The translations under genes and the position numbers were made by a program. A stretch of DNA of 64,000 nt from Nitrospirae bacterium MYbinv3. GTDB lineage: Bacteria; Nitrospirota; Thermodesulfovibrionia; Thermodesulfovibrionales; Magnetobacteriaceae. The stretch spans positions 1 to 64,000 of the forward strand of contig PEAB01000001.1 in the NCBI GenBank assembly GCA_002753395.1, written 5' to 3'. Positions 2,743 through 60,925 of this stretch are shown here, one piece after another; position 1 is the first letter of the stretch; the number at the start of each line of letters is the position of its first letter. The notes beneath the pieces are model-generated. The model was given only the letters and a program-made list of their open reading frames with translations. It made no database searches and was not told the origin of the DNA.

Positions 2743-3651
2743 TTATTGTACGTCAATCGTAATAAAGACCTTGTGTTTTTCTAATATCCTTTTGAATTCT
2801 GAACTCTTTCTTAGATTTTTCAGCTCAGTGTCTTTACGCAAGAGATTGTAGTCTGTGAATCCATTCTCCAATGCCTTATCCAGGCTTTCAAGTGCCAGGT
2901 CTGTCGTGTTCTCATCCAATGAATACAGACACGTAAGGTTATAGAATACACTATAGCTATTCGGTAAGAGTCTGGCGGCCGTTTTTAGATCATCTAGAGC
3001 CTTGTTCCGTTTCTTTAGCAGCATATAAGCCGTTCCTCTCTGTTCGTATGCCTTGCCTGTTGTTTGATTGTCATTTGAGTTAATCTCTATGGCCTTTGTA
3101 TACTCATTGATTGCGTTATCAACATACTGCACAAATGCAGCCTTATTGCCTTTATTAACATTTACAAGTGCAATCCAGTGGAAGCCTTCTTCAAGGTGTT
3201 TGATTGCTTCTTGTTTTTTCATTTCGTCTCTGCTATCATTAGCTGGCGGTAACGGTGTCGGAGGGCCGCTAGGCGGGGTAGGAGGGGGTGATGGTTTGCA
3301 TTTCTCTTTTCTTACCTCATCGATGAGTTTTTGTCTATTACTGTCAGATATCTTGTAGCTTTTTGCTATCTTATCTCCTTCAGTGCAGCTTGTATCTCCG
3401 CCTGCGCAGCAATCAATTGTCTCACAGCATTTTTTTAAGGCCTCTTTATACTTTAGTTTAGGTCCATTAGCCATCTTAGACGTCATATAAACTAATAGCC
3501 CAATTAATACTAATGCTGCTACAGCTATTCCAACTATTAACAAAGTCCGCTTATTGTTACCTTTAGGTCTATCGATTCCACATCCTTGACACTTTGTACG
3601 GCTGTCAGGATTAACTGCATTACAACCATTACATGTCCAATTACTGCTCAT
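2743..3651 (-). CDS. Zinc-ribbon (RanBP2-type) / single-TM / TPR protein
   Basis: 302 aa; N-terminal WTCNGCNAVNPDSRTKCQGCG, TM segment LLIVGIAVAALVLIGLLVYM, proline-rich linker, TPR-like C-terminus. Confidence 0.7.
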   Translation of the reverse strand: MSSNWTCNGCNAVNPDSRTKCQGCGIDRPKGNNKRTLLIVGIAVAALVLIGLLVYMTSKMANGPKLKYKEALKKCCETIDCCAGGDTSCTEGDKIAKSYKISDSNRQKLIDEVRKEKCKPSPPPTPPSGPPTPLPPANDSRDEMKKQEAIKHLEEGFHWIALVNVNKGNKAAFVQYVDNAINEYTKAIEINSNDNQTTGKAYEQRGTAYMLLKKRNKALDDLKTAARLLPNSYSVFYNLTCLYSLDENTTDLALESLDKALENGFTDYNLLRKDTELKNLRKSSEFKRILEKHKVFITIDVQ

Positions 3652-6600
3652 TCTTTACCTCCTGTTCAATAGATAATACCTCATCATCGGTCAGTCCTAA
3701 CTTCTTCTGCTTGTCCTTCAGGAAGATTCTATCGTCTTCTATAACCTCACCGAATAGATCATAACAGGATTTAAACGCTTCTTTGTACTGTCTGTATAGC
3801 TCTTTTTTGCCGCCATTCCCTGTTGTTGACAGCGCCTCCAACACTAATCTCTCGGCGTCATCAATACTGAGTCTATGACGATTGATACCTCTGTTTATTA
3901 GCGCGTCCTTATCCCTAATGCCTCTGCTTATTAACAACGTCAAATCATTTCTAAATGAAGAGACGGCTGTATCATCAGGTTTATCCGCATCGCCATGTAA
4001 ATCGAGACGGATTATTTCATGCGGTGATTCTGGCGGCTCTAGGTTAAACTTACGCCTGTAATCTTCTATAATAACCAGTTGTCTATTAAACTCTGGATTG
4101 GCCTCCCTGTCATCGAGTGAGTCCTTTAGTTTATCGAGATACCCTTCAAGCCTTGACCACAGGGCCTCTCTATCTTTCCTCGTTTTAAGAGAAGCTGCTA
4201 TCTTGTCAACAAGTCTTGTTAGTATTTCAAGGGGCGTTTCACTGGCCGTGAGGTTATCTATGTCTTTGCCTGCCTGGATGGTGATTAAGTGTTGTTCGAC
4301 GTCCGTCCAGTTTCTAGACAGTTTAGTATATATCTTTTGTCTGCTTCGCTCATCATGGTACGTTAGATATATGTGGTCGTAACCAGACTCTGCGTCGGTT
4401 CTCTGTATTAGGAAATCAAATATCCTTCCTAGGAGGACGTAGGACTCCGCCTGCCGTTTAATAACATCACTCCAGTTGTCAGGGAAGATATCTGGAAAGT
4501 CAATACTTACATCAGTGCTTGAGGGGTTAACGGCCAGATAGCTCTGTCTGTATTCACCCAAGAGGTTTATCTTATGCAGCGGGAAGGCGAGGTATTCGGA
4601 GGCAAATATGATCCTGTACATATCCGACAGCCTGCTCATATGTGAGAGATTGCCCCCTTGAGCATAGTTTTTTATACTGTAGATGGTCTTCACAAGGGCC
4701 TGAATGTTTGTATCGCCTTCTGGATTAGATGTTCCTAGCCATTCGTGCAAGAGCCCTTCACCCACGTCCGGATCGGCAATCGTGATCATCGGTTTTGACC
4801 TGCGGACATAAGAATACAAGATGTTTGCAATCCCATTGGACGGACTTCTCTGCAATATACTTGCAATAGAAAACCTTCTAATCCCTGAACACCTTTCCTT
4901 ACACTTATTCAACAGGGCATTGATAAAGCCCTCTTGCTGCAGGTCGACAATATTTAATATCCTTATCTCACTGATGGTCTTTCCGCTGTTATCTTTTTTA
5001 GCAAAGTGATAAATCAGGTCATTCATGATGGGTACGGCATAAACAGAGGGGTCGGCTACGATGGACCTGATTACCTCATATAGACTGGTCCTGTTTAGCA
5101 TCAGGTCGTTAAAAGACTTATGGGCAAGTACGACCCCTTCAATGTCTTGTTTTTTGATTGAGAACCTGTCTGAGAGACTAGAGATGCTTTCCTTATATCT
5201 TGAGATACTCCTTCTCAACGTCTCAAGTTCGTCCCTTACTGAGGGCAAGGTGCTGCCATCATCCAGGAGCAGCCCTTTACCACTGAGCATATCGATAATC
5301 ACCCTGTACGCTTCGGCATAAAGGGCGGCCTCGGCATATCCTTTAATGCAGCCATATACCTTATTTATCCAATGGAGCACTGCGAACTTGTCTTTCCCTA
5401 TAGTCTCTCTCAGGACACTAACAGAGGCAGAGAACTTGTTTTGCATAGACGTCATCTCATCCTGAAACGACTTGTGCATCTTCTGTAAGTTAGTCACCTC
5501 TTTATCTATATAACTGGCAATACCGTTTAGGAAGGCATTGGCCATCAGATGACCCTTGTACTGATCTTCTACGGTCTTTAGAGTAACCTCCTTTAGTTTA
5601 TTGACGGTGCCTAATAATTGATGTGTTCCCGTCATTTGTACAGCCCTGGTCAATGCCCCCCAGAGTCTTGGATCTGCGCTAAACTGAAGATCCCTCTTGT
5701 ATTCGTCGAAGTGCATACTTATATTGCCAATCTTGTTGGCGTCTTTCTGTGTAATTGTTTCAGCCTTCTTCTTTTCTATACCAAAGTTTACCTCGTTTAT
5801 TATATTTTTTTTCTCAGGGTTTAGCAGCACCTGAAACAGATTTTTTCTATCTATCTGGTTTAGGATGTCGCTGTCAACAGGGGTTATTGCATCCATGAAG
5901 AGCCACCTTTGAAGAGTTGCCGAGGCCATCTCGTAGGCCATCATCTCTTCAATTTTAAAAACCGGGAAGGACAGAGAAGATAATCCAAAGGACAGGAATG
6001 ACCTAGGTTTATTGGTTTGAGGCTCCAGGTTAATAAAGCCGGGCTGGGACATCTTATCAACCCTCAGCCCTTTCTTGGTATTGGAGATGTCGCTGCTAAA
6101 CTCCAGAAAGAGATTAAAGGCAGCCACCTCCTCTAGTTCACCCCTTATGAGCTGATAGTCGCCAGCGTTCTGTGTTACGATATAGCAAACATCCACAGGG
6201 GAGGTCTTATCGTTTATGATCTTCATAGCGTTTGGATCGGGGTATTCGGCATTGAATGTGGTATTGGGCATGGTGTAGTGTTGAAGCTCCTTTAGGGCGC
6301 TATAACAGTTTGCCCTTTTCGTGGGGTTATCACCGCCAATGATAAAGACTCCTATGACCTTGGATATTGCCTCTACGTTTTCGCTTTTGAGCACCTTGCG
6401 AGTGTTATAGCACAGCTCGATAAAAGAGCCGCTCCCAGTACCCCCCATGAAGGAACACACTATGTATATGTACAGGTTGTTATCCGTAGGTTGTTTTAAG
6501 GTCTGAGACGTCGTTGTGATATTTTCAAGCTGCATTACCTTTCTGATCTTACCGCTTAAGCTCTCTCTAAACGGTATGACATTGTACGTAAAGGCCAGTC

Positions 6601-6955
6601 TGCCAAAAGGTCTTATCCCGCCAGCACCCTCAGGGATAGAGCTTACGTTTAGATTCAGTTTTGGATCAAGCCATCCATTGGTCTTTCTTCTTATTGATTC
6701 AGCGTCGGCTTTAGCTATTCCCCCTGAGAGTTCCACCCTCTCAGCCGCGCTGAAGGTCAGGTTGTTACCTAGATATTCGGTAACGGCGTTTGAACCAGCG
6801 TCGGGGACCAGATTAGTGTGCGTATCCACGTGTAGGAATCCGATGCTAGGCAATAGGTCTAATGAGTCAAACTCCTCAACGATCATCCTTCTTACGTTTA
6901 ATAGAACGCTCTTGCCAACTCCCCCTATTCCAACGATTACTGACTGTGAAAACAT
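3641..6955 (-). CDS. Large tubulin/FtsZ-like GTPase (Tubulin_2-like)
   Basis: ORF 3641..6967; start at MFSQSVIVGIGGVGKSVLLN (about 6955) likely; tubulin signature MGGTGSGSFIEL; ~1100 aa with long C-terminal extension. Confidence 0.8.
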   Translation of the reverse strand: MFSQSVIVGIGGVGKSVLLNVRRMIVEEFDSLDLLPSIGFLHVDTHTNLVPDAGSNAVTEYLGNNLTFSAAERVELSGGIAKADAESIRRKTNGWLDPKLNLNVSSIPEGAGGIRPFGRLAFTYNVIPFRESLSGKIRKVMQLENITTTSQTLKQPTDNNLYIYIVCSFMGGTGSGSFIELCYNTRKVLKSENVEAISKVIGVFIIGGDNPTKRANCYSALKELQHYTMPNTTFNAEYPDPNAMKIINDKTSPVDVCYIVTQNAGDYQLIRGELEEVAAFNLFLEFSSDISNTKKGLRVDKMSQPGFINLEPQTNKPRSFLSFGLSSLSFPVFKIEEMMAYEMASATLQRWLFMDAITPVDSDILNQIDRKNLFQVLLNPEKKNIINEVNFGIEKKKAETITQKDANKIGNISMHFDEYKRDLQFSADPRLWGALTRAVQMTGTHQLLGTVNKLKEVTLKTVEDQYKGHLMANAFLNGIASYIDKEVTNLQKMHKSFQDEMTSMQNKFSASVSVLRETIGKDKFAVLHWINKVYGCIKGYAEAALYAEAYRVIIDMLSGKGLLLDDGSTLPSVRDELETLRRSISRYKESISSLSDRFSIKKQDIEGVVLAHKSFNDLMLNRTSLYEVIRSIVADPSVYAVPIMNDLIYHFAKKDNSGKTISEIRILNIVDLQQEGFINALLNKCKERCSGIRRFSIASILQRSPSNGIANILYSYVRRSKPMITIADPDVGEGLLHEWLGTSNPEGDTNIQALVKTIYSIKNYAQGGNLSHMSRLSDMYRIIFASEYLAFPLHKINLLGEYRQSYLAVNPSSTDVSIDFPDIFPDNWSDVIKRQAESYVLLGRIFDFLIQRTDAESGYDHIYLTYHDERSRQKIYTKLSRNWTDVEQHLITIQAGKDIDNLTASETPLEILTRLVDKIAASLKTRKDREALWSRLEGYLDKLKDSLDDREANPEFNRQLVIIEDYRRKFNLEPPESPHEIIRLDLHGDADKPDDTAVSSFRNDLTLLISRGIRDKDALINRGINRHRLSIDDAERLVLEALSTTGNGGKKELYRQYKEAFKSCYDLFGEVIEDDRIFLKDKQKKLGLTDDEVLSIEQEVKNEQ

Positions 6956-6956
6956 C

Positions 6957-7289
6957 TTACACCTCACTTGGTCTGGTCAATACCAGGTAGACCATGTCAA
7001 AGATTAATGCAAATACCAGGATAACCAGCGCTATTATGGTGCTGTAGAAACCGAGGATGTCTAATGATGCAATATCCCAGGCCAGAATAAAAGAGGCGCT
7101 CAATACCAGTGCCCCGTATTTGGCATTATCTATACGAGAGTTTATCGCATGATATATAATCCGCTTAAGGCCAAAATAGAGTATACCAAAGAACACACTG
7201 AAGGCTATGGCGATAAGGATCTCCTTTGTGGTAAGCTCTAGCGGCGGGGAGACCTCAACAAAGGTCTCCCATAAAAAAATCCTAAACAT
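6957..7289 (-). CDS. Small multi-TM membrane protein in the tubulin-caspase operon
   Basis: 110 aa with 3 hydrophobic segments; located immediately upstream of the tubulin-like gene on the same strand. Confidence 0.6.
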   Translation of the reverse strand: MFRIFLWETFVEVSPPLELTTKEILIAIAFSVFFGILYFGLKRIIYHAINSRIDNAKYGALVLSASFILAWDIASLDILGFYSTIIALVILVFALIFDMVYLVLTRPSEV

Positions 7290-7301
7290 ATCTTTCCTCC
7301 T

Positions 7302-8642
7302 TTATTTTGATTTTGCTAACTTTATGTTCCAGTCCTTTGTATCAGGTACTACCTGCGGATGTTGGTGTTCGTTTCTTTCAGCCCATACCCCATCAGTAAC
7401 GCGTGGTTTAGCATAACTAAAGGCATTAGCTATTTCGCCTTTAGTTTGTTTCAAGCCATCGAGTAAGAAGTAAGTGAAGAAACCGTTTTTAAGTCTTTTT
7501 GACTCAAATGATCTTTCGTTATTTCCACTTGCGCTTATCAAAACCTTCCCCCATCCATCAGATGAAAAGCTGCTTGATTCCTCCAATACTATATCCTTCG
7601 AGCCTATCATTTTTTTTGCCTGGTTTTCGCTTATACCATAGGTTTCATCTTCAACGCCCAGGGATTTTGCTCCTTCAGGATTAAGGCCTTTTATGTTCTT
7701 GTAAGCGCCGCTGCTATAACAAGTATCAAGTATAGCAACAACCCTTTTAGCCCTTATTCCTTGGAAAAAACCACTAAGCTCTGTTGCGGATATAGATGTA
7801 GACCACATTTTGTCTCCTGGTTTTTCAAATACTGTATCGTGAGTTACAATTGGTACATAGCCTTCTTTATCTGGCTTTGTACCATGACTACTTATATATA
7901 AGACCACAAGGTCGTCATCTTGGGCCTTGCTTATTATCTCATCCATGGCATTTTTTATATTAGCCCTTGTAGCTTTTTCACCTATTATGAGGGCGACATT
8001 ATTCTTGGTGAATCCTCCCTTGGCTGAATCAATAAGATATTTATACAGGTCACTTGCATCCTTTTCGGCAAATTCTAATTGTGGCGCTACTCTTTCGTTC
8101 TGAAATCTCCCTATGCCGACTACGAGGGCGTATCTGTTTTTGATCGGGCCCGGAGGACCGGCGCTCTTCTTTACGGCTGGGCTTTGGGCCGCTTTTAGCA
8201 TCATCTCTGAGAGCTTCTTAGACCAGCCTGGTACAACAACATTTTCAGGATCTACGGGTGAAACCCACTTTACGCCTACCGTTGACTGAGCTAGAGAAAA
8301 GGCCTTGTCAACCTCTTCCTCGTTTAGATATGAGCCTTTAAGCTGTATCCGTCCTAACCTGTCTATCTCCACAAAGCCATCCCGCACATTATACTTCTTA
8401 AACAGGTCATTAATCGTGGCTACGTGATGCGATGTAATTGGCGAGGAAGGATTCGTGGCTAATTGCGCAGCAGGACTTGATGCGGTAGCTGATGGTTGCG
8501 AAGGTGTTTCTGGCTGACCATAAGTCATACCTTGCCCTCCAAGCATCCCTAAACCTGTAACAGTTTGTAATGGTATACATTGCATTAGCAATAATGTGAT
8601 TGAAATAAGGCAGACAATAAGCAGTAAATAACTCTTTTTCAT
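7302..8642 (-). CDS. Caspase-like (peptidase C14) lipoprotein
   Basis: 446 aa; lipobox-like LLLMQC; YALVVGIGRFQ, VVLYISSHGTKPD (catalytic His context) and VVAILDTCYSSGAY (catalytic Cys context). Confidence 0.85.
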   Translation of the reverse strand: MKKSYLLLIVCLISITLLLMQCIPLQTVTGLGMLGGQGMTYGQPETPSQPSATASSPAAQLATNPSSPITSHHVATINDLFKKYNVRDGFVEIDRLGRIQLKGSYLNEEEVDKAFSLAQSTVGVKWVSPVDPENVVVPGWSKKLSEMMLKAAQSPAVKKSAGPPGPIKNRYALVVGIGRFQNERVAPQLEFAEKDASDLYKYLIDSAKGGFTKNNVALIIGEKATRANIKNAMDEIISKAQDDDLVVLYISSHGTKPDKEGYVPIVTHDTVFEKPGDKMWSTSISATELSGFFQGIRAKRVVAILDTCYSSGAYKNIKGLNPEGAKSLGVEDETYGISENQAKKMIGSKDIVLEESSSFSSDGWGKVLISASGNNERSFESKRLKNGFFTYFLLDGLKQTKGEIANAFSYAKPRVTDGVWAERNEHQHPQVVPDTKDWNIKLAKSK

Positions 8643-8707
8643 AATAATAAACCTCGTAATTTAAGCTGATGAGGGGGAGCAAGGCTCCGCCCTCTCTTAC
8701 ATGTGAC

Positions 8708-9406
8708 TTAATTCTTAACGCTGACCTCAACCTCGCGCCTATCAGTTTGGTTCTTATATGACACCTCGTAGATGATCTTATATCGTCCCTCTGGCAGCTC
8801 TTTAGGGAGATCGATTGGCCCTTCGATCTTTCTTGTTCCGGGGTCAATCGTCCTTTTCTGGTTGATTGGCTCATTAAGTTTATTAGCATTGCCTTCTTTA
8901 TCGTAATATACAATGTAAAACGACTCCGTTACGCTTAGATCTTTTGTAGTCTCCGGATCCAAAACATAATATTTCCCTATGAGAGTAATCTGCTTTCCTG
9001 GCGCTAGAGTAGAAGGTGAGGCTTTTAACGTCTCAAGTTTCACCAAAGTACCTTTCTTAGGCTCATAGTTGATCGACTTTGCCGTTTCTTTGTAATCTGC
9101 AACCTGCGTATTTGCCACATTAAAGTAGTATGCAATACACTTACCCCATGCCAGGGCAAAGGCTGTAGTACCACCAGCAATGGCGCCCTTAACAGCCCCA
9201 TCCCTGCCTCCAAGTAACCCGCCTACAACCCCGCCTAAAACAGCGCCGCCTACCGTGTTCATGGCTATACACTGATCTTTTGCCGCATTGCGTTCATCAT
9301 CTGTCATGTTAGGACTTGGCTTTGGCAACATTGTGGTACATGATGTAACGAAGAATGCTGTTATTATTAACAGCGCAACGATGTTATACCTCTTACTGAT
9401 CTTCAC
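8708..9406 (-). CDS. Glycine-zipper lipoprotein
   Basis: 232 aa; lipobox FVTSC; GGAVLGGVVGGLLGGRDGAVKGAIAGG glycine zipper. Confidence 0.65.
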   Translation of the reverse strand: MKISKRYNIVALLIITAFFVTSCTTMLPKPSPNMTDDERNAAKDQCIAMNTVGGAVLGGVVGGLLGGRDGAVKGAIAGGTTAFALAWGKCIAYYFNVANTQVADYKETAKSINYEPKKGTLVKLETLKASPSTLAPGKQITLIGKYYVLDPETTKDLSVTESFYIVYYDKEGNANKLNEPINQKRTIDPGTRKIEGPIDLPKELPEGRYKIIYEVSYKNQTDRREVEVSVKN

Positions 9407-9424
9407 TTATCAATTCTCCTTTAT

Positions 9425-10210
9425 TTAACTTCTGTGTTTAAGCTTTATCTCTACTAAAAAAGACTTGTCTTCATCTAATATCCTAGAAGGGATAACTCCA
9501 TAGTTTTCCCCGCTATCGTTCTCTAATTTGATATCCTTGCTGTCTGTACGGTCTATGTTACAATTGGTGTTAGATAAAACGGCATAATTTGAACCAACTG
9601 CATCCTCCACTACGATATCTTTAGAGCTTGCCATAATTGTCTCCGGTTTACAATTAGGCCTACCCCCTACAGGGAGCTTGTCTGATGCACTGGATATCTG
9701 AAAGACTATTGTCTCCGTACCTGGCGGATCGACAATGCGCATGGCACTTTTACTAGGTATTTCTAAAGGGGTATAAGGGCTGACAGGTCCGTTATGCAAA
9801 TAATTAACATTACCTGTTGGTCCTACGTTATACACAGTCAAGTAGCCTGGCCTATTTACCTGTGCTATTATCCTAATCCTGTCGCCAGTTCTAAACACAC
9901 GCTTGTCAGAAACTGGCCGAGGGATCCCATCGTCGGAGATGAGCATTACTGTGTACTTTATCCCAATGTGGGGTGCGGATACGGTTTGTATAACATTTTC
10001 GTTCCTCTCCCTCACAACCTTTGTTTTTGTAGTCACCGTTGTCTTTTTTCGCCTTTCACCATCCTCTGTCTCTACACTTACTTTATTCTCATTATACTCA
10101 AAAAGACCTTTGGCGCCTGTCGGTTCAGCACTGTAAACGCTGATTCCACCTACAAAACACGGCATAACTATTGCAACGGCGCAAATCACCCTATACAATA
10201 TATTCTTCAT
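9425..10210 (-). CDS. DUF4384-like secreted protein
   Basis: ORF 9425..10240; signal peptide start MKNILYRVICAVAIVMPCF with RBS aaggagg; VFRTGDRIRIIAQVNRPGYLTVYNVGPTGNVNYLHNG typical of DUF4384. Confidence 0.7.
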   Translation of the reverse strand: MKNILYRVICAVAIVMPCFVGGISVYSAEPTGAKGLFEYNENKVSVETEDGERRKKTTVTTKTKVVRERNENVIQTVSAPHIGIKYTVMLISDDGIPRPVSDKRVFRTGDRIRIIAQVNRPGYLTVYNVGPTGNVNYLHNGPVSPYTPLEIPSKSAMRIVDPPGTETIVFQISSASDKLPVGGRPNCKPETIMASSKDIVVEDAVGSNYAVLSNTNCNIDRTDSKDIKLENDSGENYGVIPSRILDEDKSFLVEIKLKHRS

Positions 10211-10225
10211 ATTTTTCCTCCTTAG

Positions 10226-10500
10226 TTTTTTGGACAACAATTAAATTTGTTTAATTACACAGGATAATAAAATACGTGTATCCTGTTTTTCTATTAACTT
10301 AGCTGCTAGTAGGTCATATCCACCCCTCCTTCTTTAGGATTACAACAACGCAAAACACCCGTCGTAAATTATTCGTATGGATTTTTTCTGACTTGTTTTG
10401 TGGACAGCAATTAAATGGGTTTATAAATACATTTACCGATTCTATTAACTTAGTTTATCAGTGGGTCATATCCACCTCTTCTTTCTCTGGTTACAGACAT
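10226..10500 (-). repeat. Degenerate direct duplication of a ~110-bp upstream region (about 10226-10340 and 10396-10500)
   Basis: Shared TTGGACAACAATTAAAT / GTGGACAGCAATTAAAT, TCTATTAACTTAG and GGTCATATCCACC blocks in the same order. Confidence 0.6.
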
Positions 10501-10618: not shown

Positions 10619-10800
10619 GGGTGCATAGAAATTAGCGGTTTTTTAGAAATAGAAGGGGAGACTCTGTCTGTTGCCGCATGGGTTAGCAACCCCTCCCCTC
10701 AGACCCCTCCGCAAGGGGACTAGTCCCCTTGCGGAGGGGTCTGAGGGGAGGCTCTGCCTCCCCTTCTTTGAAAACCCCCACGACTTTCTTATGCGCCCCC
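10619..10800. repeat. Family A MITE-like palindromic repeat containing a 60-bp perfect palindrome
   Basis: Termini GGGTGCATAGAAATTAGCGG / CCCACGACTTTCTTATGCGCCCC; palindrome 10692..10751. Confidence 0.75.
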
Positions 10801-43577: not shown

Positions 43578-45101
43578 ATGGAGGTTACGTTGAAGAGAAA
43601 GGTTAGAATAGAAAGGCAGTGTCTTTTGTTTGTTCTGTTGGCGCTGACTTTTGTTGCGGCCTGCAGCGAATCAAATGTCCCTCCTCCTGAAACAGTAAAT
43701 TTAGCGGTAAAACAACCGGCATCGCAAAATATTCACGCAAACGTTTTTCTTGATGTATCCGGTACGATGGAGGGCTTTGTCTATAGAACAGCTTTGCAGT
43801 CAAACTATAAGGATGCGGTAAGACAGGTAGAGTCAGTGTTTCTTGCGAAATGGCCTTCTCCAACAATAAGCTTCTATAAGTTCGCTAGAAGTACTAGACC
43901 AATAGATAGTATCTTTAATGTAACCTCGCCGGATTTTTATAGGGAAAGTAGGTTTTCTGACGCTACCAACATTCACACGGTTTTCGAAGAAGAAGGAGTT
44001 TGTAAAAAAGATACCCTGTCAATAATAATCACAGACCTGGTACCTGATCCTCCTAATACTATTAGGTTAGTTAAAAAGATTAGTGATAAATGTATCTCTA
44101 AAGACTATTCCATAGGGATTGGAGGGTTTACGAGCAGATATCGAGGAAGAATAAGAGATAATGAAAATGATAGCTTAAATATTATCAAAAGTTCAGATAG
44201 GCCATTCTATATAATTGCATTAGGCAGCCATGCCAATATCGAGGAGTTTTTTAACCAAATACTCAAGCAATTTAATAGTTTTGCCTCGAAAGAAACAATG
44301 ACGATCTTCTCACCAGCTATCGTCGAACAGCTTTTGACCTTCTCAGAAAGTTCCGTTGCTTACAGGTCGCCAAATGTCATTGAGACTAAAAGTATCATTA
44401 GATATGGCAGCACGGGCACAACGACACAGAACAAAAAGGTAAAGGATAAAATTATACAGAAAGAAAAGTCGGAGGACAAAAAACCACCGAGTGTAACGCT
44501 GCAGAGTGAAGTAATCAAACAGTTTGTAGTACGTCCTTCTAAAGATACTACAAATACAACCAGTGACACTGACATCATCACCAAACTAAACTACGCTCCA
44601 GTTCAATACAGGGTACCCCTTAAGGAAGACTCTTATATCAAAAAAGATTGGCCGTCTTGCAAAACCGAACTGTTAAAACGATATAAAAACGAACTAATAG
44701 TAAGTAATACGACAGTTGAAAAATATAATGAAATAAAAGGGTTTGAAGAAGTTAAGGGCATTACAAATTCATTTTATGTTAATGCGATGTTATGTGTAGA
44801 TAAGGATCCCAGTAAAGGTGGAAATACCCCTGAGAGGACAAAGCTGTTTCTGCATGTTGGTCTAAATACTAAGGTGTTGAATAATGGCTGTATATACCGT
44901 CTGACAGTAGACATTAAACCTGCTGACAGTGCATTTGATAAAACTGATAAATGGTGGAAGACATGGAATCTTGACAATAATGGATCTATAGGCTCAAAAA
45001 CGCCAAACCTTAATCTGTTTATTAATACCATCGAAGGCGTCACTATTCAACACAAACGACCGTATTTGGGTAGTGTTTATTTCTACTTTAAAAAGGATTA
45101 A
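43578..45101 (+). CDS. vWA-like lipoprotein
   Basis: 507 aa; lipobox FVAAC; NIHANVFLDVSGTMEGFVYR (MIDAS-like DxSGT), SIIITDLVPD. Confidence 0.7.
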   Translation: MEVTLKRKVRIERQCLLFVLLALTFVAACSESNVPPPETVNLAVKQPASQNIHANVFLDVSGTMEGFVYRTALQSNYKDAVRQVESVFLAKWPSPTISFYKFARSTRPIDSIFNVTSPDFYRESRFSDATNIHTVFEEEGVCKKDTLSIIITDLVPDPPNTIRLVKKISDKCISKDYSIGIGGFTSRYRGRIRDNENDSLNIIKSSDRPFYIIALGSHANIEEFFNQILKQFNSFASKETMTIFSPAIVEQLLTFSESSVAYRSPNVIETKSIIRYGSTGTTTQNKKVKDKIIQKEKSEDKKPPSVTLQSEVIKQFVVRPSKDTTNTTSDTDIITKLNYAPVQYRVPLKEDSYIKKDWPSCKTELLKRYKNELIVSNTTVEKYNEIKGFEEVKGITNSFYVNAMLCVDKDPSKGGNTPERTKLFLHVGLNTKVLNNGCIYRLTVDIKPADSAFDKTDKWWKTWNLDNNGSIGSKTPNLNLFINTIEGVTIQHKRPYLGSVYFYFKKD

Positions 45102-45119
45102 TAATAAGGAGGACATGAC

Positions 45120-45605
45120 GTGGCAAAACTAAAACAGATTATGTCAATATCAGGTATCTTGCTTATTGGCGGGTTGTTCTGCTTGTTATCCAACGTAGAG
45201 CTGGAATACATAGTAAACAGGCGTATCACAATCTTTGAAAGCTATGATCTGGAAACGTGGGAAAAGCAATTTATAACCGGAGCTTATATTGTGTGCGCTT
45301 TTGCAGCGTTCATCAGCGTACTGTGGTATGGATTGACGCAGTGGCATTTTAAGGTTGTTGATTGGAAAAGCGTTGGTAAACGACCTCTATGGCTATTTTT
45401 GTTTTTCATTATACCTATAGCAGCTTTTCTATTTGGGCTTGTTTATTTGAAGGACTATGTTGAGCAAGGGATTGGATGGCCAGCTGGGTTCTATGCAATT
45501 AACAGTATGCTTTGCTATTATCTTTCTACGCTATTTTGTTCGCCAGTGGCGTTTAAGTACACCCCAATTGGTGCAACGTTAGTACGATACTGGCTGCACT
45601 ATTAG
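45120..45605 (+). CDS. Multi-TM membrane protein
   Basis: 161 aa; at least 4 hydrophobic segments; between vWA-like and tubulin-like genes. Confidence 0.6.
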   Translation: MAKLKQIMSISGILLIGGLFCLLSNVELEYIVNRRITIFESYDLETWEKQFITGAYIVCAFAAFISVLWYGLTQWHFKVVDWKSVGKRPLWLFLFFIIPIAAFLFGLVYLKDYVEQGIGWPAGFYAINSMLCYYLSTLFCSPVAFKYTPIGATLVRYWLHY

Positions 45606-45637
45606 ATAATTAGATAATTAGAACAGGGAGGAAGAAG

Positions 45638-47185
45638 ATGAAACATTACGCTATAGGGATAGGGGGAACGGGTGCAAAATGTATGGAGGCGTTTGTGCAT
45701 CTGTGTGCTGCTGGCATAATTGATGGAGAGATTTTTAGCCTCTTTATAGACCCTGACAGTGCAAACTATCTCCTTGAGAGGGCAACAAAGGCCTTTAATA
45801 CCTACATTAAATGCAAGGGCACCAACGTAAGCGGCATTGACTTCATGCGTGCTAGGATAAATGCACCAGACCCAATGGTATGGCCGCTCTTTGATACGAA
45901 TGTACAGCCTGACCTCAGCAGCTACTTTCAATACACCAACATGCACAACATCAGAACGGAGGCGGCACACCTGTTTGACACCCTATATACCAAAGCAGAA
46001 AAGGAAACCACACTTGAACGGGGCTTTAGGGGGCATCCTGCAATAGGTGCTGCAATAATGGCAAGCATCGCTCAGACCAAAAACGAACCGTGGGGCACCT
46101 TCTGCGACAGGTTGGTTCAGGACTTAGGCAGCGGCGAAGATATAAAGATCTTTATCTTTGGCTCTGTCTTTGGCGGTACAGGCGCTTCAGGGCTGCCTAC
46201 CATCGCAAGGGTCATAAACAACCTTATAACGGATGGAGGTAGTAAAAAGAGCGCTAAGGGCACTGTAAAGATTGGCTGCGCTATGCTGCTACCTTACTTC
46301 TCTTTTGTGAGCAGTGATAACGACAATGAGTTAAAGGCTAAATCAGAAAATTTTATAGTCAATACTCAAGCCGCCCTCAAGTATTATCATCAGATGAAGA
46401 GAATGGACATCTACGATGCAGTCTATTTGCTAGGGACAGAGACACAAAGTCCCGTATCTGTGGCAAGTACGGGAGGCCGTGAGCAGAAAAACGATCCGCA
46501 TTTTATCGAATTATACGCAGCCCTCGCGGCCTTTGATTTCTTCAAAGCTACGAATTACAACCGTTCAGCCATGTATAGAGTGTTAGGGCGGGAGAAAAAT
46601 AACAGGGTTGACTGGGAGGACCTTCCTGACAACGAAACCCGCTCTATGATAAAAAGCAAGATTCTTAATCTAACACGATTTGCATTTGCCTACTTGAACT
46701 TCTATTACCCTATGTTAGGGGATATCGATAAAAGGGGGGCTTTCTATAAGGCACCGTGGTATGTTGATATATTTGAGAGATGTGGAGAAAAACTGCTTTC
46801 TGATAAAACAAAGGCATCACTGCTTGACTTAAAGGGTTATTCTGAACAGTATTTGTCGTGGTTAGCCAATATACACAAGTCCGCAAGGGATGTGAATGTA
46901 AACCTTATAAATTGCAATGCCTTTTCCTATACGGTAGATGAAAACGGGCGGACGAAGACCGAGCTTTTGGCTGATTTTAGGCGCGAGCATTTTGATGATC
47001 TGTTGTTGCCGGCAACCAACACGCCAACAGACGGTTTAAATGGCCTCTGGCATCGTATATGCGAGACGGCATTAGAAAAAGATAATAGCCTCAATGCTCT
47101 GGGTAGATTTATAAAGGTGCTTTATAATTCTTGTTCAGTAATAAAAAACAACAAACCGCTGCAAGAAAGAGCAAGCACTCGATAG
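45638..47185 (+). CDS. Tubulin/FtsZ-like GTPase (Tubulin_2-like)
   Basis: 515 aa; MKHYAIGIGGTGAKCMEAFVHL, IFIFGSVFGGTGASGLPTIARV. Confidence 0.82.
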   Translation: MKHYAIGIGGTGAKCMEAFVHLCAAGIIDGEIFSLFIDPDSANYLLERATKAFNTYIKCKGTNVSGIDFMRARINAPDPMVWPLFDTNVQPDLSSYFQYTNMHNIRTEAAHLFDTLYTKAEKETTLERGFRGHPAIGAAIMASIAQTKNEPWGTFCDRLVQDLGSGEDIKIFIFGSVFGGTGASGLPTIARVINNLITDGGSKKSAKGTVKIGCAMLLPYFSFVSSDNDNELKAKSENFIVNTQAALKYYHQMKRMDIYDAVYLLGTETQSPVSVASTGGREQKNDPHFIELYAALAAFDFFKATNYNRSAMYRVLGREKNNRVDWEDLPDNETRSMIKSKILNLTRFAFAYLNFYYPMLGDIDKRGAFYKAPWYVDIFERCGEKLLSDKTKASLLDLKGYSEQYLSWLANIHKSARDVNVNLINCNAFSYTVDENGRTKTELLADFRREHFDDLLLPATNTPTDGLNGLWHRICETALEKDNSLNALGRFIKVLYNSCSVIKNNKPLQERASTR

Positions 47186-47206
47186 TAAACTTAGGAGGAT
47201 GATAGA

Positions 47207-50200
47207 ATGGCACATATACTAGCGCCCAAAATGAAAGATGGTGGAGACAATAACACAACCCCAATTACCGAGCGAGGGGTATGGGAGACGAGGGATTATT
47301 CTGAGCTTCACAAACTGAGTGAGAGCCTAAAGATAAGTGATGAGATCGCTAGTTATGTAGAGTTAACCGGTATCCCTGACTTATGGGCTCGTCTGCGTTT
47401 CTTTGATATGGCCTTGTACGACGTGCGTCACCCATTTCACCTCGATGTGATTGGGCAATGGCGCGGGCTTTTGGCTCTTATTGCACTGAACGAAATAAAA
47501 TTAAATAACGGTCTAAAGGCCGTCTCTGTAGACTTGAAAAATACAGCAGGCAAACAGAATTTTGAATTCATTGATGTCAGCATGGCCTTGCTTCCTTCTG
47601 AGGTACTATACCCCAATACGGATTGGTCAGAGCTGTACATATTTCTGTTTAGGAATAAACCGATAGGTATTACGTCGCCTACAACCCTTGTCTGTACGGC
47701 AGCCGATTATATGAATCGCCTAAACAATGTCTCATGGTATAACGGGGTGGTGCTGAAAGACCCAATCCCTTGTCTAAATAGCAAAGAAAAATCTCTTCTG
47801 GCCGGTTGGCTCTCGATGCTTAAGGCCAGCCTGCTTAAAACAGCAGTAGTAGATGACAGACTCATAACTCTGATTGACAACCCGGCTCTCAATCAAAACA
47901 AACCTCGCGGTTTTATACAGGATCTTACCTGTGAGTTTGTGAAGATTGGGTTCAGTAATACGAGTCTTAATATGACAAAGGGGATATACAGGTTTATCTC
48001 AAGGCCTATAGGACCCAAAGGTAAACCTGAATCACACGTGCTCTTAATATCAGACAGGACACCAGAGGCAACGCCCAAGGTTTTGTTTATAGAGGATGAT
48101 ATCCATAGACAATGGGGTTTAGAGCGTCATGACGTCACTCTTTACGGGCACATAACCCTTGACGGGATGCCTTTTGGCGGGGTACAAGAAAACACAAAGA
48201 TGATAGGGGACACCCCGCTGCCAGAGGAGTTCGTAATAAAGAAAAAAGACAGCTTCTTTATGGATAAGATCTATCTCATCGGGGTGCCAGACGCCTTTCC
48301 GGGCGCCTTACCGATTAAGGGAAGCAGTGACCTTAGTCTTCAAGATACACCTCTTACGCCGTTGATACCGTTAAAGGAGGAGATCCTTAAATATATAAGC
48401 CCCTTAGAATTGAGCAAAAGGATACGTTTCCAAAGAGACGGTGTGGATATAAGCGTTACCCTGCGTCTGCCCTTAGCGGGGCCTGATGGAAGAGGCAAAG
48501 ATTATAAGGTTACAAAAACCTTCTTAAAGGCAGAAGGTCAAGTAGATACTAGTATCAATGGCGTGCCTGTGCTGCAGTTGTGGCCAAACTTTATAGTAAA
48601 AGAAAAGGAGAGGGCATGGAACCTCTATTTTTCTTTTTACAGCATGGGCGATATCACAACCTTCCACGCTACGCCATATCATTATAAAGGTCATATTCTA
48701 AAACAAAAGGCGTCGAAGGCAAACGGTCGGATTAAGAGTGAAAACGTACAGATGGATATGTATCCAGAGGCCATGTTATGCAGTTTTGATCCGCTTGGTA
48801 CAGGGAGTGAGATAACGGTGGGCATTGTGCTTCTTAAAGAGCCTCAACCGATAGATGTGCAGCCTTATAAGGTTTGGAGGATCGGGATTGATTTTGGAAC
48901 AACCGGAACGAGCGTTTACTATCGTGAAGGCAAAAGTGAACCCGAGAGGCTGTCCTTTTCGAAGCAGTTACAGGTGAGCATAACTGGGTCCACTGAAGAG
49001 AAGCGCCCTGATTTATATCGGAGTTTTATCCCTGAGGCCTTGATAACCCCACCATTTTTGAGCGTATTTCATATCCTGAATAAAACGGCACAACACCCTC
49101 TATCCCCACTGATTGACGGCAATATTGCTTACGTATTGCAGGGTGGGGGCGAATACGATGCAGGCAAAGATGACATCAAAACGGATCTAAAATGGAGCGA
49201 TAAGATAGATGACAGGGTTTATACTAATGCCTTTTTAAATCAAATATTCCTGCAGTGTTCAGCGGAGGCAGTTTTCAACGGTGTTAGCACTGTAACGTGG
49301 AAATACTCTTACCCTGTTAATTTCTCTATGGATGAAGCGTTTATGGCTACATGGAAAGGTATTCTTCAGACTTATTCTGGTTTGATCTGTTTAAAGACGG
49401 ATGATAAGTATCCAGGCTTTATAGGAGAGAGTGAGAGTGTGGCATCGGGGATGTACTTCGGAGAACATCCCCGATATGGGGCAACTTCTAAGGCAAATTT
49501 TGTTAAAGGGGTGATCTGTTTTGATATAGGCGGTGGTACTACTGACATTTCTATCTGGCATAAGGATAATAAGCTGCTTTATCAAACGTCAGTGCTTTTA
49601 GCCGGAAGAAATCTGTTTCTCGATATCTTATATTTAAGGACAGATATAATAGATCTCTTTGCACAAGACAGAAAACAAGTGGATTTGATTAAAGAGAAAA
49701 CCGATAGAAGGATCTTTTATTCTCAAGCAGATGCCTTGATTATGAAAGAAGGCGAAGCATGGCTTAACGAAAAACTTAATGCTATTTCAGGAAGTGAAAA
49801 GTTTAAGGAGTTAAAGAGGCTCATCGCTATTGGTATAAGCGGGCTATTTTACTACGTCGGCTTAATCTTTAAAGGTTTAATGACAGAGAACACAAGGCTT
49901 CCTGGCATTTACGCAGGCGGCAATGGTTCAAAGCTATTTCATTGGATTGCAGGCTCTCAATACAGTAAAGATAGTGTTATCAACAAACTTTTAAGAGGGG
50001 CACTCATCGGTTTGCCTTACAATGAAGCAGATAGTCTTAAGGCAGCGGAAAACCCTAATGATTTTGTAGTAAACCTAAGTATGGATCCCAAGGCAGAGGC
50101 TGCATATGGTTTGGCCATCAGTGATGCCGCTTATCTCAGAGATGATAAGGCAGCTCAGCGTAAAGAGGTATTCTCGGGCGCTAAATACTACTATGAATCG

Positions 50201-50497
50201 GTTATGCAGGGCTGCAATACCATGCTCTATGAGGACATGTTTATTAAAGGCATTGAGATAGACAGAGAGTTGCTAAATCTCAAGGAATTTGTTGAGATTT
50301 TCAACAGTTATGCAGAACTAAGTAATCTGCAGCAGATAAATGTTGACGAGGGTATCTATGGCAGGATAGCAGACAATGTGTCTCAAAAACTCACGAACCA
50401 TAGAGCTATGAAAAAGGGAGAAATAAGACTTGAGCCTTTATTTATATTAGAGTTAAAAGAACTTCTGAGGTTAGAAACAGAGGCATGGACAAACTGA
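47207..50497 (+). CDS. Large actin/Hsp70-fold ATPase
   Basis: 1096 aa; VWRIGIDFGTTGTSVYYREG (phosphate 1), GVICFDIGGGTTDISIW (phosphate 2), LPGIYAGGNGSKLFHW (adenosine-like). Confidence 0.8.
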   Translation: MAHILAPKMKDGGDNNTTPITERGVWETRDYSELHKLSESLKISDEIASYVELTGIPDLWARLRFFDMALYDVRHPFHLDVIGQWRGLLALIALNEIKLNNGLKAVSVDLKNTAGKQNFEFIDVSMALLPSEVLYPNTDWSELYIFLFRNKPIGITSPTTLVCTAADYMNRLNNVSWYNGVVLKDPIPCLNSKEKSLLAGWLSMLKASLLKTAVVDDRLITLIDNPALNQNKPRGFIQDLTCEFVKIGFSNTSLNMTKGIYRFISRPIGPKGKPESHVLLISDRTPEATPKVLFIEDDIHRQWGLERHDVTLYGHITLDGMPFGGVQENTKMIGDTPLPEEFVIKKKDSFFMDKIYLIGVPDAFPGALPIKGSSDLSLQDTPLTPLIPLKEEILKYISPLELSKRIRFQRDGVDISVTLRLPLAGPDGRGKDYKVTKTFLKAEGQVDTSINGVPVLQLWPNFIVKEKERAWNLYFSFYSMGDITTFHATPYHYKGHILKQKASKANGRIKSENVQMDMYPEAMLCSFDPLGTGSEITVGIVLLKEPQPIDVQPYKVWRIGIDFGTTGTSVYYREGKSEPERLSFSKQLQVSITGSTEEKRPDLYRSFIPEALITPPFLSVFHILNKTAQHPLSPLIDGNIAYVLQGGGEYDAGKDDIKTDLKWSDKIDDRVYTNAFLNQIFLQCSAEAVFNGVSTVTWKYSYPVNFSMDEAFMATWKGILQTYSGLICLKTDDKYPGFIGESESVASGMYFGEHPRYGATSKANFVKGVICFDIGGGTTDISIWHKDNKLLYQTSVLLAGRNLFLDILYLRTDIIDLFAQDRKQVDLIKEKTDRRIFYSQADALIMKEGEAWLNEKLNAISGSEKFKELKRLIAIGISGLFYYVGLIFKGLMTENTRLPGIYAGGNGSKLFHWIAGSQYSKDSVINKLLRGALIGLPYNEADSLKAAENPNDFVVNLSMDPKAEAAYGLAISDAAYLRDDKAAQRKEVFSGAKYYYESVMQGCNTMLYEDMFIKGIEIDRELLNLKEFVEIFNSYAELSNLQQINVDEGIYGRIADNVSQKLTNHRAMKKGEIRLEPLFILELKELLRLETEAWTN

Positions 50498-50518
50498 TGC
50501 CAAGCAGCATTAGCTTAA

Positions 50519-50688
50519 TATACTAAACTAAATGGAGTTTGCAAAAAGATTTTGACCTTGATATCCAATAACATGAAAATGTCATTCCTGCGAAAGCAGG
50601 AATCTATGCGTCTTGACGGGATTACGGAGTGGATTCCCGCTTACGCGGGAATGACAAGATTTTTGCAAACCTGACTTATCTTGGTATA
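50519..50688. repeat. 170-bp MITE-like element, copy 2
   Basis: Near-identical to 29499..29668 with the same TATAC...GTATA termini. Confidence 0.78.
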
Positions 50689-50727
50689 GAATAAAGTAAT
50701 GTCAGATGTATGTAAACATTGAGATTG

Positions 50728-50819
50728 TCTGAACTAGGATTACACGGATGCAAGGATTTACAGGAAAAAGCGGCTGCGTAATCCTGACAATCCTTAAATC
50801 CGTTAAATCATGGTTCAGA
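50728..50819. repeat. 92-bp inverted-repeat element, copy 2
   Basis: TCTGAACTAGGATTACACGGAT ... AAATCCGTTAAATCATGGTTCAGA. Confidence 0.78.
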
Positions 50820-50837
50820 TTAAAAGGATGGTAATTT

Positions 50838-51992
50838 ATGAAGAACAAGTTATACTTAAAACAAATAACTCTATTTTTATCTATTTCAATCTTTACAGTA
50901 TTACTTGTGAACCTATGTAGTGGGTTGAAAGATTTTGCCTATGCTGAGGATCCTAAAGATGCGGTTAAAGCTGAGGTAAAGCCAAAAAAAGGCGAAAAGA
51001 AAGAATCTACAAAAAATGATACGCATAAGCAACCATCACCTTCGCCAAAGCCACAAGGCAATGCAACTACTTTGCCTCCAAAAGTAAATGTTAGCGATGA
51101 ACTCTACAGTATAAAAAGTACATTGTCCAATATTGAATTGAGATTGGAAGCGATAAAAGAGCTTACAATACAACTTAAAGATACTCATCAAACAACGAAT
51201 CGTTATGATAAAGAAAACCCATCTTCTTCTACCGACGATTTTTTTCTGTGGACTATTATAAACATTGTTGCTTTAGTTGCTTTTTTTGTTTCCTTGTTAC
51301 TTATTCTTGATCATAAGTTAGATAAGTTGTTGATAGATATAGTCGATAGACATAAGCAGGAATTAAGTAAATTACAGCATAATTATAATAGTGAAAAAGG
51401 TAAACCTACTAGTAGAAAAGATGATTTTGACTTTGAACAAGAGATTAAAAATCTGAATGTTCAATTGACAACAATAGATTCAAAGATTCAAACGATTCAT
51501 AACCTTTTAGCCAGGTTTGTTAAAAGTAATAGTTCTAATGAAAATGAACCAAGCAACCAATGTCAAATAGGCTATGATAAGCCGAAGAATGAATCGGTCT
51601 CAGCGCGGATTGAAAGATTCATCAATGACTATAATAATAATAATAGACCTGATTCTTTTAAAGATAGCTATACTCCCCAAAAATTAGGAATAAAAAATAC
51701 TGAAGAAAGGTACAAAGATCCAAACATACAGCCCAGAATTTCTGAAGCAGGAAACGGTTGGTATTGGGGTGTTGATCTCAATGATGACGGAAAACTGTAC
51801 GTTGTCCCCATACATGGGGCTCAGATAAGTGAACAGGGATATAACACCCACGCATTAGATTCCTTTTATGATAGCAATTTTACACCAAACGCATATTTTC
51901 GTAATATCAAACTTATCAAACCCGCACGTTTAAAAAGTTCGGCAGGAAACGAGTGGGTGATAGATGAAAAAGGTAGACTGGAACTAAGCTAA
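50838..51992 (+). CDS. Membrane-anchored coiled-coil protein
   Basis: 384 aa; N-terminal signal/TM, second TM FFLWTIINIVALVAFFVSLLLIL, coiled coil, globular C-terminus GWYWGVDLNDDGKLYVVP. Confidence 0.65.
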   Translation: MKNKLYLKQITLFLSISIFTVLLVNLCSGLKDFAYAEDPKDAVKAEVKPKKGEKKESTKNDTHKQPSPSPKPQGNATTLPPKVNVSDELYSIKSTLSNIELRLEAIKELTIQLKDTHQTTNRYDKENPSSSTDDFFLWTIINIVALVAFFVSLLLILDHKLDKLLIDIVDRHKQELSKLQHNYNSEKGKPTSRKDDFDFEQEIKNLNVQLTTIDSKIQTIHNLLARFVKSNSSNENEPSNQCQIGYDKPKNESVSARIERFINDYNNNNRPDSFKDSYTPQKLGIKNTEERYKDPNIQPRISEAGNGWYWGVDLNDDGKLYVVPIHGAQISEQGYNTHALDSFYDSNFTPNAYFRNIKLIKPARLKSSAGNEWVIDEKGRLELS

Positions 51993-51993
51993 C

Positions 51994-53844
51994 TTGACCA
52001 ATATAGTCACATATATCAGGAGTTTAATGGGCGTAACCAACTTTTTAGAAACGCTTGTATCATATCTGAGGCCTTCAAATACAATAGCCATGTCTGTGGT
52101 GATGTTTCTTATCATATTATTTGTTATATGGCTGCTTGCCTTGTCCTTTCAAGCAATCACGATAATAAGGAAACGGAGGTTAATCAATAAACTGTCTTAC
52201 GTCGATGCCCTCGCAAGTTTCCGTGAGGGATATACATACGTTAAAAAGCAAAATAAACATGAAAAAGCATTTGAACTGTTCCTAAGCGATAATAAGGTAT
52301 CGAGAAACTCCATTATCGCCAAACACATACACACTATATTTGAGGCCGGTATTAAAGGCTCCCAACTAGAGATTGCCTCCCTCCTAAACCACACCAACCA
52401 CCAACTGTTTGCCGCCAATAACCTTTTGAAAAACGTCCTGAGCGTCTTTATCATCATCGGCCTCCTGGGTACCCTGTTTGGTCTGGCCGACAGCCTTGCC
52501 CACCTCTCGCTTATAACCGACGTAAATGACACTAAACAGTTTAAGAATGACATCTCGTTTGCCTTACGAGACCTCCTGGTTTCCCTGAAAAGCGCCTTTG
52601 CACCAAGCATATGGGGTGTCATGTTTACCATCGCGGGTGTCTTTGCCTATGGACTGTACATCAACTTTTCCTGCAACCCCCTAAAGACCTCCCTCGAATA
52701 TAAGACATTAAACGTCTGGCTTCCTGAACTCTACCCCACCACCACCCAGGAACTCTATAAGACTCTACAACAGAGCGAACAACACATGCGAGAAAACTTT
52801 AAGGCCGCTAAAGAAGTCGCAAACCTGGCACAATCCATTAAAGATGAGACAGGCGATTTTAAACAAAACCTCAAGAGCGCAAACTCACTCTTAGTGCCCC
52901 TTAGTATAACTACAGAACAATTGAATACCACCTCACAGTTATTAGACAAGGACTTCTGCAATAGATTAATGCTCTTTACGAGTGAATTTGCCAAGAGCGT
53001 AAACTCCCTGACGTCTTTTCAGGCCGAGTTACGAACCTTATACGACCAGATGATCAAAGGCTCTGAAACCCTAGAACAGAATCTGACACGCTCTCTGTCT
53101 GTCCAACAAGCAGAGATCCATGATATTATATTCAGCATTAAAAAATATGAGAAGTCATTCCTGGAATTACAAGAAAAACTTGACACGAACGTCTTAGCTT
53201 TTATCAACGAGGCAAAAGAGGCCACCACAAGCGTAAGCAAAAGCAACAGAGATATCGTCGAACAGAACCTTAAAAACCTCACAGCCAGTCTGAATGAGTT
53301 GAATTATATCCTACAAACAGGACTAATCAGCATATTGGAACGATTTAATAGATTCGATACCCCTGTCAAAGGCGCGGCTGATAAGATTGAAAGTAACTTT
53401 GAAAACTACAACAAGCTCATTCAGGGTATGCTCTCTGAACTGCAAAAGGAGATCATTCAGCAGGGTGCAAGATACAGCCAACATCTCACAGAAGGCAACG
53501 AACTAAAAGATCGGATCGAAAAACTTTTCACACAAGTAGATATAAACAGCGCCAAACAGATAACGTCCATTGATGGTTTTGTTAAAAACGTCGAGTCGCT
53601 TAATGCTACGGCAGCCAAACTGCTCCAAGGTACAGAGAATATGCTCACAGCGCTTCAACACAGCAGCGACGCCAACTCCCTGTCCAACAACATCCCAAAA
53701 CTGACAGCAGCCATCAATGACCTGATTCAACTTATAGCAACGGGTCTCTCCATAGATGTTGTAAGACCCTCAGTTTCTATGCCTTCAGATGGCAGTGGAA
53801 GCAAAATAAATAAGATAATGGATAAGCTTAGACGGAAATTATGA
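51994..53844 (+). CDS. MotA/TolQ/ExbB-like (ZorA-like) channel protein with long coiled-coil tail
   Basis: 616 aa; SVFIIIGLLGTLFGLADSLAHLS and SAFAPSIWGVMFTIAGVFAYGLYI followed by long helical region; start codon is TTG. Confidence 0.68.
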   Translation: MTNIVTYIRSLMGVTNFLETLVSYLRPSNTIAMSVVMFLIILFVIWLLALSFQAITIIRKRRLINKLSYVDALASFREGYTYVKKQNKHEKAFELFLSDNKVSRNSIIAKHIHTIFEAGIKGSQLEIASLLNHTNHQLFAANNLLKNVLSVFIIIGLLGTLFGLADSLAHLSLITDVNDTKQFKNDISFALRDLLVSLKSAFAPSIWGVMFTIAGVFAYGLYINFSCNPLKTSLEYKTLNVWLPELYPTTTQELYKTLQQSEQHMRENFKAAKEVANLAQSIKDETGDFKQNLKSANSLLVPLSITTEQLNTTSQLLDKDFCNRLMLFTSEFAKSVNSLTSFQAELRTLYDQMIKGSETLEQNLTRSLSVQQAEIHDIIFSIKKYEKSFLELQEKLDTNVLAFINEAKEATTSVSKSNRDIVEQNLKNLTASLNELNYILQTGLISILERFNRFDTPVKGAADKIESNFENYNKLIQGMLSELQKEIIQQGARYSQHLTEGNELKDRIEKLFTQVDINSAKQITSIDGFVKNVESLNATAAKLLQGTENMLTALQHSSDANSLSNNIPKLTAAINDLIQLIATGLSIDVVRPSVSMPSDGSGSKINKIMDKLRRKL

Positions 53845-60668: not shown

Positions 60669-60925
60669 TGAAATAAAAACACCATCTTTTATTTTAACAC
60701 AAATCGGTAGAGAAGGGGGAGAGCAAAAGGGGAGGCTCTGCCTCCCCTCAGACCCCTCCGCAAGGGGACTGGTCCCCTTGACCCCGTAAATGTCAGGCGT
60801 GGCTGCTAAAGATGTTACTTGCTATACATCAATAATACTTAAGTCAACAGCATTATTGATCTTTTGGAATTAAATGTATAAAATAAATCTAATAATATTG
60901 TTTATCTATGGAGGTGCTATAATTT

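Follow-up and report, generated by a model that had tools for sequence, protein, structure and literature searches.

The window analysed here, the first 64,000 nucleotides of contig PEAB01000001.1 (assembly GCA_002753395.1, Nitrospirae bacterium MYbinv3), belongs to a Candidatus Magnetobacterium (Nitrospirota) and carries six tightly packed minus-strand genes at positions 2743-10210 (Table 1). In transcription order they encode a secreted DUF4384 protein, a glycine-zipper lipoprotein, an exported C14 caspase, a protein with three transmembrane (TM) segments, a Tubulin_2/FtsZl1 GTPase and a zinc-ribbon/TM/TPR protein, with spacing typical of an operon: the gaps measure 18, 65, 12 and 1 nt, and the last pair overlaps by 11 nt. 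A preliminary description of this DNA, made from its letters, had listed such a six-gene run; all six reading frames are present at the positions and on the strand it gave, and its naming of the DUF4384, glycine-zipper, three-TM and zinc-ribbon/TM/TPR products holds. Two gene starts are revised. The DUF4384 gene most likely begins at ATG 10210, which has the ribosome-binding site 'aaggaggaaaaat', and not at TTG 10240, which would give 271 aa, and the tubulin-like gene most likely begins at ATG 6955, since its orthologues begin there, instead of at GTG 6967 (1108 aa in the list of open reading frames).

Table 1. Features of the cassette and its leader, with positions in the window
Feature	Length	Position	Strand	Basis
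Gene 1, secreted DUF4384 protein	261 aa	9425..10210	(-)	signal peptide; Pfam PF14326 1.5e-7
Gene 2, glycine-zipper lipoprotein	232 aa	8708..9406	(-)	lipobox VTSC; PF05433 5.8e-4, below cut-off
Gene 3, exported C14 caspase-like peptidase	446 aa	7302..8642	(-)	PF00656 6e-16
Gene 4, three-TM membrane protein	110 aa	6957..7289	(-)	three hydropathy segments; alignment of 7 homologues
Gene 5, Tubulin_2/FtsZl1 GTPase-like protein	1104 aa from ATG 6955	3641..6955	(-)	PF13809 3e-56
Gene 6, bitopic protein	302 aa	2743..3651	(-)	TPR and weak RanBP-type zinc-ribbon matches; one TM
Operon leader, degenerate duplication		10211..10483	(-)	repeat families D1-D3; ~150-170 bp spacing

All six genes keep their order in the other three genomes of the genus, four of four with the window, although the glycine-zipper gene of one (L023) had to be recovered by tblastn; these relatives include Candidatus Magnetobacterium casense MYR-1 and the metagenome-assembled genomes nDJH13bin1 and nMYbin3. 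Orthologues share 50-73% protein identity across the cassette (about 64% for gene 1 in the three relatives, 61-71% for gene 2), and pN/pS values of 0.24-0.43 indicate purifying selection. Because the gene order recurs in three other genomes under such selection, a chance arrangement is excluded. The neighbouring gene is mtnA-like (named by eye) in two of the relatives (L015, L016) and a response-regulator gene cluster in the window, which implies at least one change of insertion context.

Domains and predicted folds

The gene 5 product matches PF13809 at 191.6 bits against a cut-off of 27, and its N-terminal tubulin/FtsZ domain contains GIGGVGK (T1) and GGTGSGS (T4), with G13, G15, G16, G18 and G175-G180 invariant across 31 sequences. 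Sequence searches gave no significant relative of solved structure; Foldseek comparison of an AlphaFold2 model (31 sequences, pLDDT 78.9) with the PDB returned FtsZ, CetZ, TubZ and tubulin as best matches (E from 4e-5) over ~340-375 columns. The model predicts long helices at residues 439-468, 474-522, 527-561 and 577-615, then a mixed part and a helical tail, here called the C-terminal mini-domain, an arrangement that would correspond to the extended coiled coil and mostly helical C terminus of FtsZl1. As the sequence and architectural features of FtsZl1 (PMC2875224) are both found, we regard the protein as a member of that family. Conservation of the motifs suggests that it probably binds GTP and forms filaments. 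The giant tubulin-like GTPase of the preliminary description is confirmed, apart from its start codon.

The gene 3 product consists of a signal peptide, a disordered linker and a caspase domain (residues 170-432) with His253 and Cys308, a catalytic dyad that is invariant in four caspase orthologues. The signal-peptide cysteine, Cys22, is likewise invariant, and the lipobox LMQC is atypical because Gln precedes the cysteine, a correction to the earlier label of a lipoprotein with caspase His/Cys motifs. The AlphaFold2 model is poor (four sequences, pLDDT 50.7), and a Foldseek search with the caspase core of this poor model gave metacaspases and MALT1 as best matches (E from 5e-7). Both folds foreseen in the preliminary description, tubulin and C14, are thus recovered, and the caspase fold and His/Cys dyad place the product among the C14 caspases/metacaspases, from which caspase activity would be expected. 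Residues 71-122 are modelled as an alpha-beta-beta-alpha unit that might, at a guess, be BON-like. The genome of the window has a second caspase gene, with a DUF4384 match in frame, that is unlinked to a tubulin-like gene (L020:5272-6915).

The gene 6 product (P0001) is built of an N-terminal zinc ribbon, a TM segment at 36-54, a helical mini-domain, a Pro-rich linker and TPR. Its zinc ribbon is probably cytoplasmic and its TPR end, or TPR/DUF4384 end in relatives, periplasmic, because the counterpart in a distant relative (L027, below) carries DUF4384 and P0001 has paired cysteines after the TM segment. The segment that follows the TM (positions 3290-3460) is akin to the last 50 residues of the tubulin-like protein (positions 3641-3800), with an hhalign probability of 79.7% against 0.1% for the reversed control. 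A Pfam scan of the C-terminal domain of the gene 2 product gave no significant match.

Relatives and gene associations

A scan of 84,980 species genomes found two further full-length relatives of the tubulin-like protein, at 34% identity in the magnetotactic deltaproteobacterium YD0425bin50 (L025; PMC5955933) and at about 25%, with a broken frame, in NC_groundwater_1020 (L027). Genome searches added an N-terminal part at 33% identity in G839 (L157), and genome sets of 5 to 395 around L025, L027 and G839 contained no clade members beyond those known. In a tree of 47 Tubulin_2 domains the four genus members and these three sequences form one clade (support 100/98), and 12 chromosomal cyanobacterial members form a separate one. 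In each of the clade's four lineages the gene immediately upstream of the tubulin-like one is the three-TM gene, whose products align across all four; the zinc-ribbon gene follows the tubulin-like gene in both outside lineages whose contigs are long enough (L025, L027). The L025 order is three-TM, Tubulin_2, zinc-ribbon/TM, a 266-aa secreted protein with HERIH (an HExxH motif, by eye) and DUF4384; that of L027 is three-TM (end), Tubulin_2, zinc-ribbon/TM/DUF4384, TPR/OmpA/DUF4384 and a secreted TPR protein truncated where the contig ends; and that of L157 is TPR, lipoprotein, M48-CHAT, OmpA-DUF4384, three-TM and Tubulin_2 (contig end). The peptidase partner is therefore a C14 caspase in Magnetobacterium, an M48-CHAT protein in L157, CHAT being a member of the caspase superfamily, and an HExxH-motif protein in L025. 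The M48-like part of the secreted L157 fusion (L157:3150-5216) reads AREIAY, so its HExxH is not intact. None of the caspases of the L025 genome is an adjacent partner: they sit on different contigs, in one case next to flagellar-type genes. The tail of the L025 tubulin-like protein has two copies of the mini-domain; the mini-domain of L025 gives a weak TerB match below the cut-off.

Outside the clade several Tubulin_2 operons have vWA genes, and two also include a caspase in the same-strand run, in L134 as a caspase-FGE fusion with an OmpA-DUF4384 protein and in L160 with a glycine zipper and a peptidoglycan-binding domain. A vWA-like gene precedes Tubulin_2, by eye, at the six cyanobacterial loci with listed neighbourhoods, and the one such gene tested gave no Pfam match.

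Across 30 lineages DUF4384 lies within 10 kb of a Tubulin_2 gene in 5, with 0.14 expected, and a caspase in 3, with 0.21 expected. This test is partly post hoc, with the genus of the window as its starting point; when that genus is left out, our own arithmetic gives 4 against ~0.13 for DUF4384 (P about 1e-5) and 2 against ~0.2 for the caspase (P about 0.02), so that the first link is strong and the second, the weaker of the two, only suggestive. The genome-wide domain counts, from which CHAT was left out, are lower bounds because the PF00656 genome search missed the window's own caspase, found by hmmscan. The linkage of Tubulin_2 to the membrane pair and DUF4384 is firm. For the caspase, the link is firm inside the genus and belongs to a looser peptidase theme outside it. 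A tubulin-like gene, DUF4384 and a caspase-superfamily or other peptidase gene recur as a unit, and the refuting condition of the preliminary description, that homologues of the tubulin-like gene lack caspase and DUF4384 genes beside them in other genomes, was checked and did not refute the coupling. We consider it quite unlikely that a separate DUF4384/lipoprotein/caspase unit merely happens to lie upstream of a core of three-TM, Tubulin_2 and zinc-ribbon genes: the peptidase does differ by lineage, and DUF4384 and caspase domains are often associated anyway (PMC7475262), but DUF4384 adjoins Tubulin_2 in the four clade lineages and in L134, and the tightly spaced cassette has no internal break.

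A model for the cassette

We propose, with about an even chance of being right, that the cassette represents the FtsZl1 (Tubulin_2) envelope system in a variant form with a peptidase, in which a GTPase polymer is tied to a module in the periplasm, on the peptidoglycan side. The large tubulin-like protein would bind GTP and polymerise on the cytoplasmic face of the inner membrane, where the three-TM protein and the zinc-ribbon/TM protein would tether the polymer through physical contact. The state of assembly could then be relayed across the membrane by the zinc-ribbon/TM protein, whose periplasmic helical/TPR part would draw in three partners, namely the DUF4384 protein, the glycine-zipper lipoprotein and the caspase. 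By assembling or disassembling, the polymer would recruit or release the peptidase module and so switch on or localise periplasmic proteolysis, most plausibly for remodelling or repair of the envelope. This reading fits what is found in relatives, in which (L157, L027 and L134) the DUF4384 partner is fused to OmpA-type peptidoglycan-binding domains and therefore points to the envelope; these domains suggest anchoring to peptidoglycan, and envelope remodelling is the best fitting of the functions that the preliminary description had offered. The export signals of the cassette and the peptidoglycan-binding domain in the L160 run are further signs of the envelope.

The FtsZl1 family and its predicted membrane-remodelling operons were described by Makarova and Koonin in 2010 (PMC2875224; Pfam Tubulin_2, PF13809), who already proposed these operons to be membrane-associated. 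The cassette shares with them the N-terminal tubulin/FtsZ GTPase domain, long coiled coil and helical C terminus of the central protein, as well as TM and secreted/OmpA-type partners. It differs in that a kinase, a separate GTPase and a vWA gene are absent; Pfam gives no vWA match for any of the six products, and vWA genes are found in the majority of FtsZl1 operons, not in all. Beyond those operons it adds the caspase, DUF4384, the glycine-zipper lipoprotein and the specific three-TM and zinc-ribbon/TM pair, and the main text of that paper makes no mention of caspases, peptidases or zinc. With prokaryotic metacaspases/orthocaspases (C14) the gene 3 product shares the His/Cys dyad and caspase fold, and in the orthocaspases of cyanobacteria DUF4384 is known as an accessory domain (PMC7475262). 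Unlike orthocaspases, the cassette caspase is exported, has a possibly BON-like N-terminal region, and is accompanied by DUF4384 on a separate protein and by a tubulin-like gene in the operon. We found no description of a Tubulin_2-caspase operon in the open-access papers searched, in line with the preliminary remark that the combination was not a recognised system, and the cassette is a real, conserved and apparently undescribed variant of a known one.

Several points weigh against this model. The type of peptidase varies within the clade, and no caspase is visible on the short contigs of L025 or L027. In the assumed topology the mini-domains of the Tubulin_2 tail and of the TM protein apparently lie on opposite sides of the membrane, and the envelope-remodelling function would derive from the partners only. 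Finally, the T6-H7 elements of FtsZ are hard to identify in FtsZl1 (PMC2875224).

An unlikely alternative is an anti-phage or regulated-death conflict system, in which sensing of an invader would lead the GTPase to assemble and the caspase to kill the cell or switch on an effector. Caspases, and tubulins together with vWA proteins, do occur in nucleoside triphosphate-dependent conflict systems (Kaur et al. 2020, PMC7159879), whose GTPase/tubulin members, like the cassette, combine a tubulin-superfamily protein with membrane and zinc-ribbon partners; the cassette caspase matches a PADLOC caspase model, and the window contains, at a distance of 33 kb, another locus of the tubulin/ASKHA/vWA/ZorA-like kind. 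Unlike those systems, however, the six products include no DO-GTPase or GAP1, nor is there an EACC1 or known effector gene. The only PADLOC match is to a generic caspase model (41.6 bits), with no system partner, and the EACC1-caspase model (NF047832) scores 81.5 bits against a cut-off of 140. The caspase has an export signal, the flanks read hold ordinary chromosomal genes and no defence genes, all four genomes of the genus keep the cassette under purifying selection, and relatives add OmpA domains, all of which disfavours the defence or stress-death role first suggested.

A role in division or morphology, with the tubulin-like polymer positioning a septal or envelope protease, has a functional precedent in HetF of Anabaena, a caspase-superfamily membrane protein beside a tubulin-family polymer, and we think it quite improbable. 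HetF is a CHAT protein of the membrane and belongs to the divisome, where it contacts FtsI; synthesis of septal peptidoglycan requires it (PMC8406250). CHAT is also present in L157. HetF differs, however, in protease family and architecture, and it works with FtsI at the divisome of FtsZ instead of with FtsZl1; in two-hybrid tests it did not bind FtsZ (PMC8406250). FtsZl1 proteins usually coexist with FtsZ (PMC2875224), and a patchy distribution, with Tubulin_2 above the cut-off in 4 of 296 genomes of the phylum, disfavours a core division role.

In giant magnetotactic bacteria, as in a handful of their distant relatives, the tubulin-like gene is always accompanied by genes for membrane, cell-wall-side and protease products, which suggests a little-known machine joining a filament inside the cell to a protease of the envelope. 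Its fullest form, which we put forward tentatively, would be a trans-envelope signalling machine in which a cytoplasmic tubulin-superfamily assembly directly controls a periplasmic caspase-superfamily protease, with peptidase modules interchangeable between phyla. The FtsZl1 family dates from 2010, and a clade with fixed membrane partners and an exported peptidase provides a concrete, testable link, raising the question whether a tubulin-family polymer positions or switches, across the inner membrane, a protease of the caspase type. Such a link, if true, would be a new use of the tubulin and caspase superfamilies in bacteria and would offer a handle on the envelope biology of giant uncultured magnetotactic cells.

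Leader and neighbouring loci

In the operon leader either copy of the duplication holds 'GGTGGATATGACC' and a three-codon open reading frame (MTY*, MTH*) behind a purine-rich stretch resembling a ribosome-binding site. A perfect 60-bp palindrome at 10692-10751 separates the cassette from the divergent response-regulator gene; the core of the palindrome is repeated at 60744 and on another contig of the same genome (L020:11054) and is REP/MITE-like. An Rfam element in the leader was rejected, as the matches were chance ones to miRNA models caused by the perfect palindrome. A phage or plasmid origin of the cassette was likewise rejected, with no match in 50,697 phage records and no viral-contig relative; a plasmid collection gave four distant matches at 23-30% identity, none of them full-length.

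The second tubulin-like locus of the window, at 43578-53844 (+), encodes a lipoprotein with a MIDAS-like DVSGT motif, a 515-aa Tubulin_2-like protein (33 bits), a 1096-aa protein with HSP70/actin-type motifs (IDFGTTGTS, FDIGGGTTD), a TM protein and a MotA/ExbB protein with weak ZorA similarity. It resembles tubulin/HSP70 conflict systems, and no DO-GTPase was seen there. At 1519-2595, adjoining a FAD/NAD oxidoreductase gene, lies a gene for a protein of repeated 'LELI..GENIPTFLEGLKTME' units with a C-terminal DUF1641 match.

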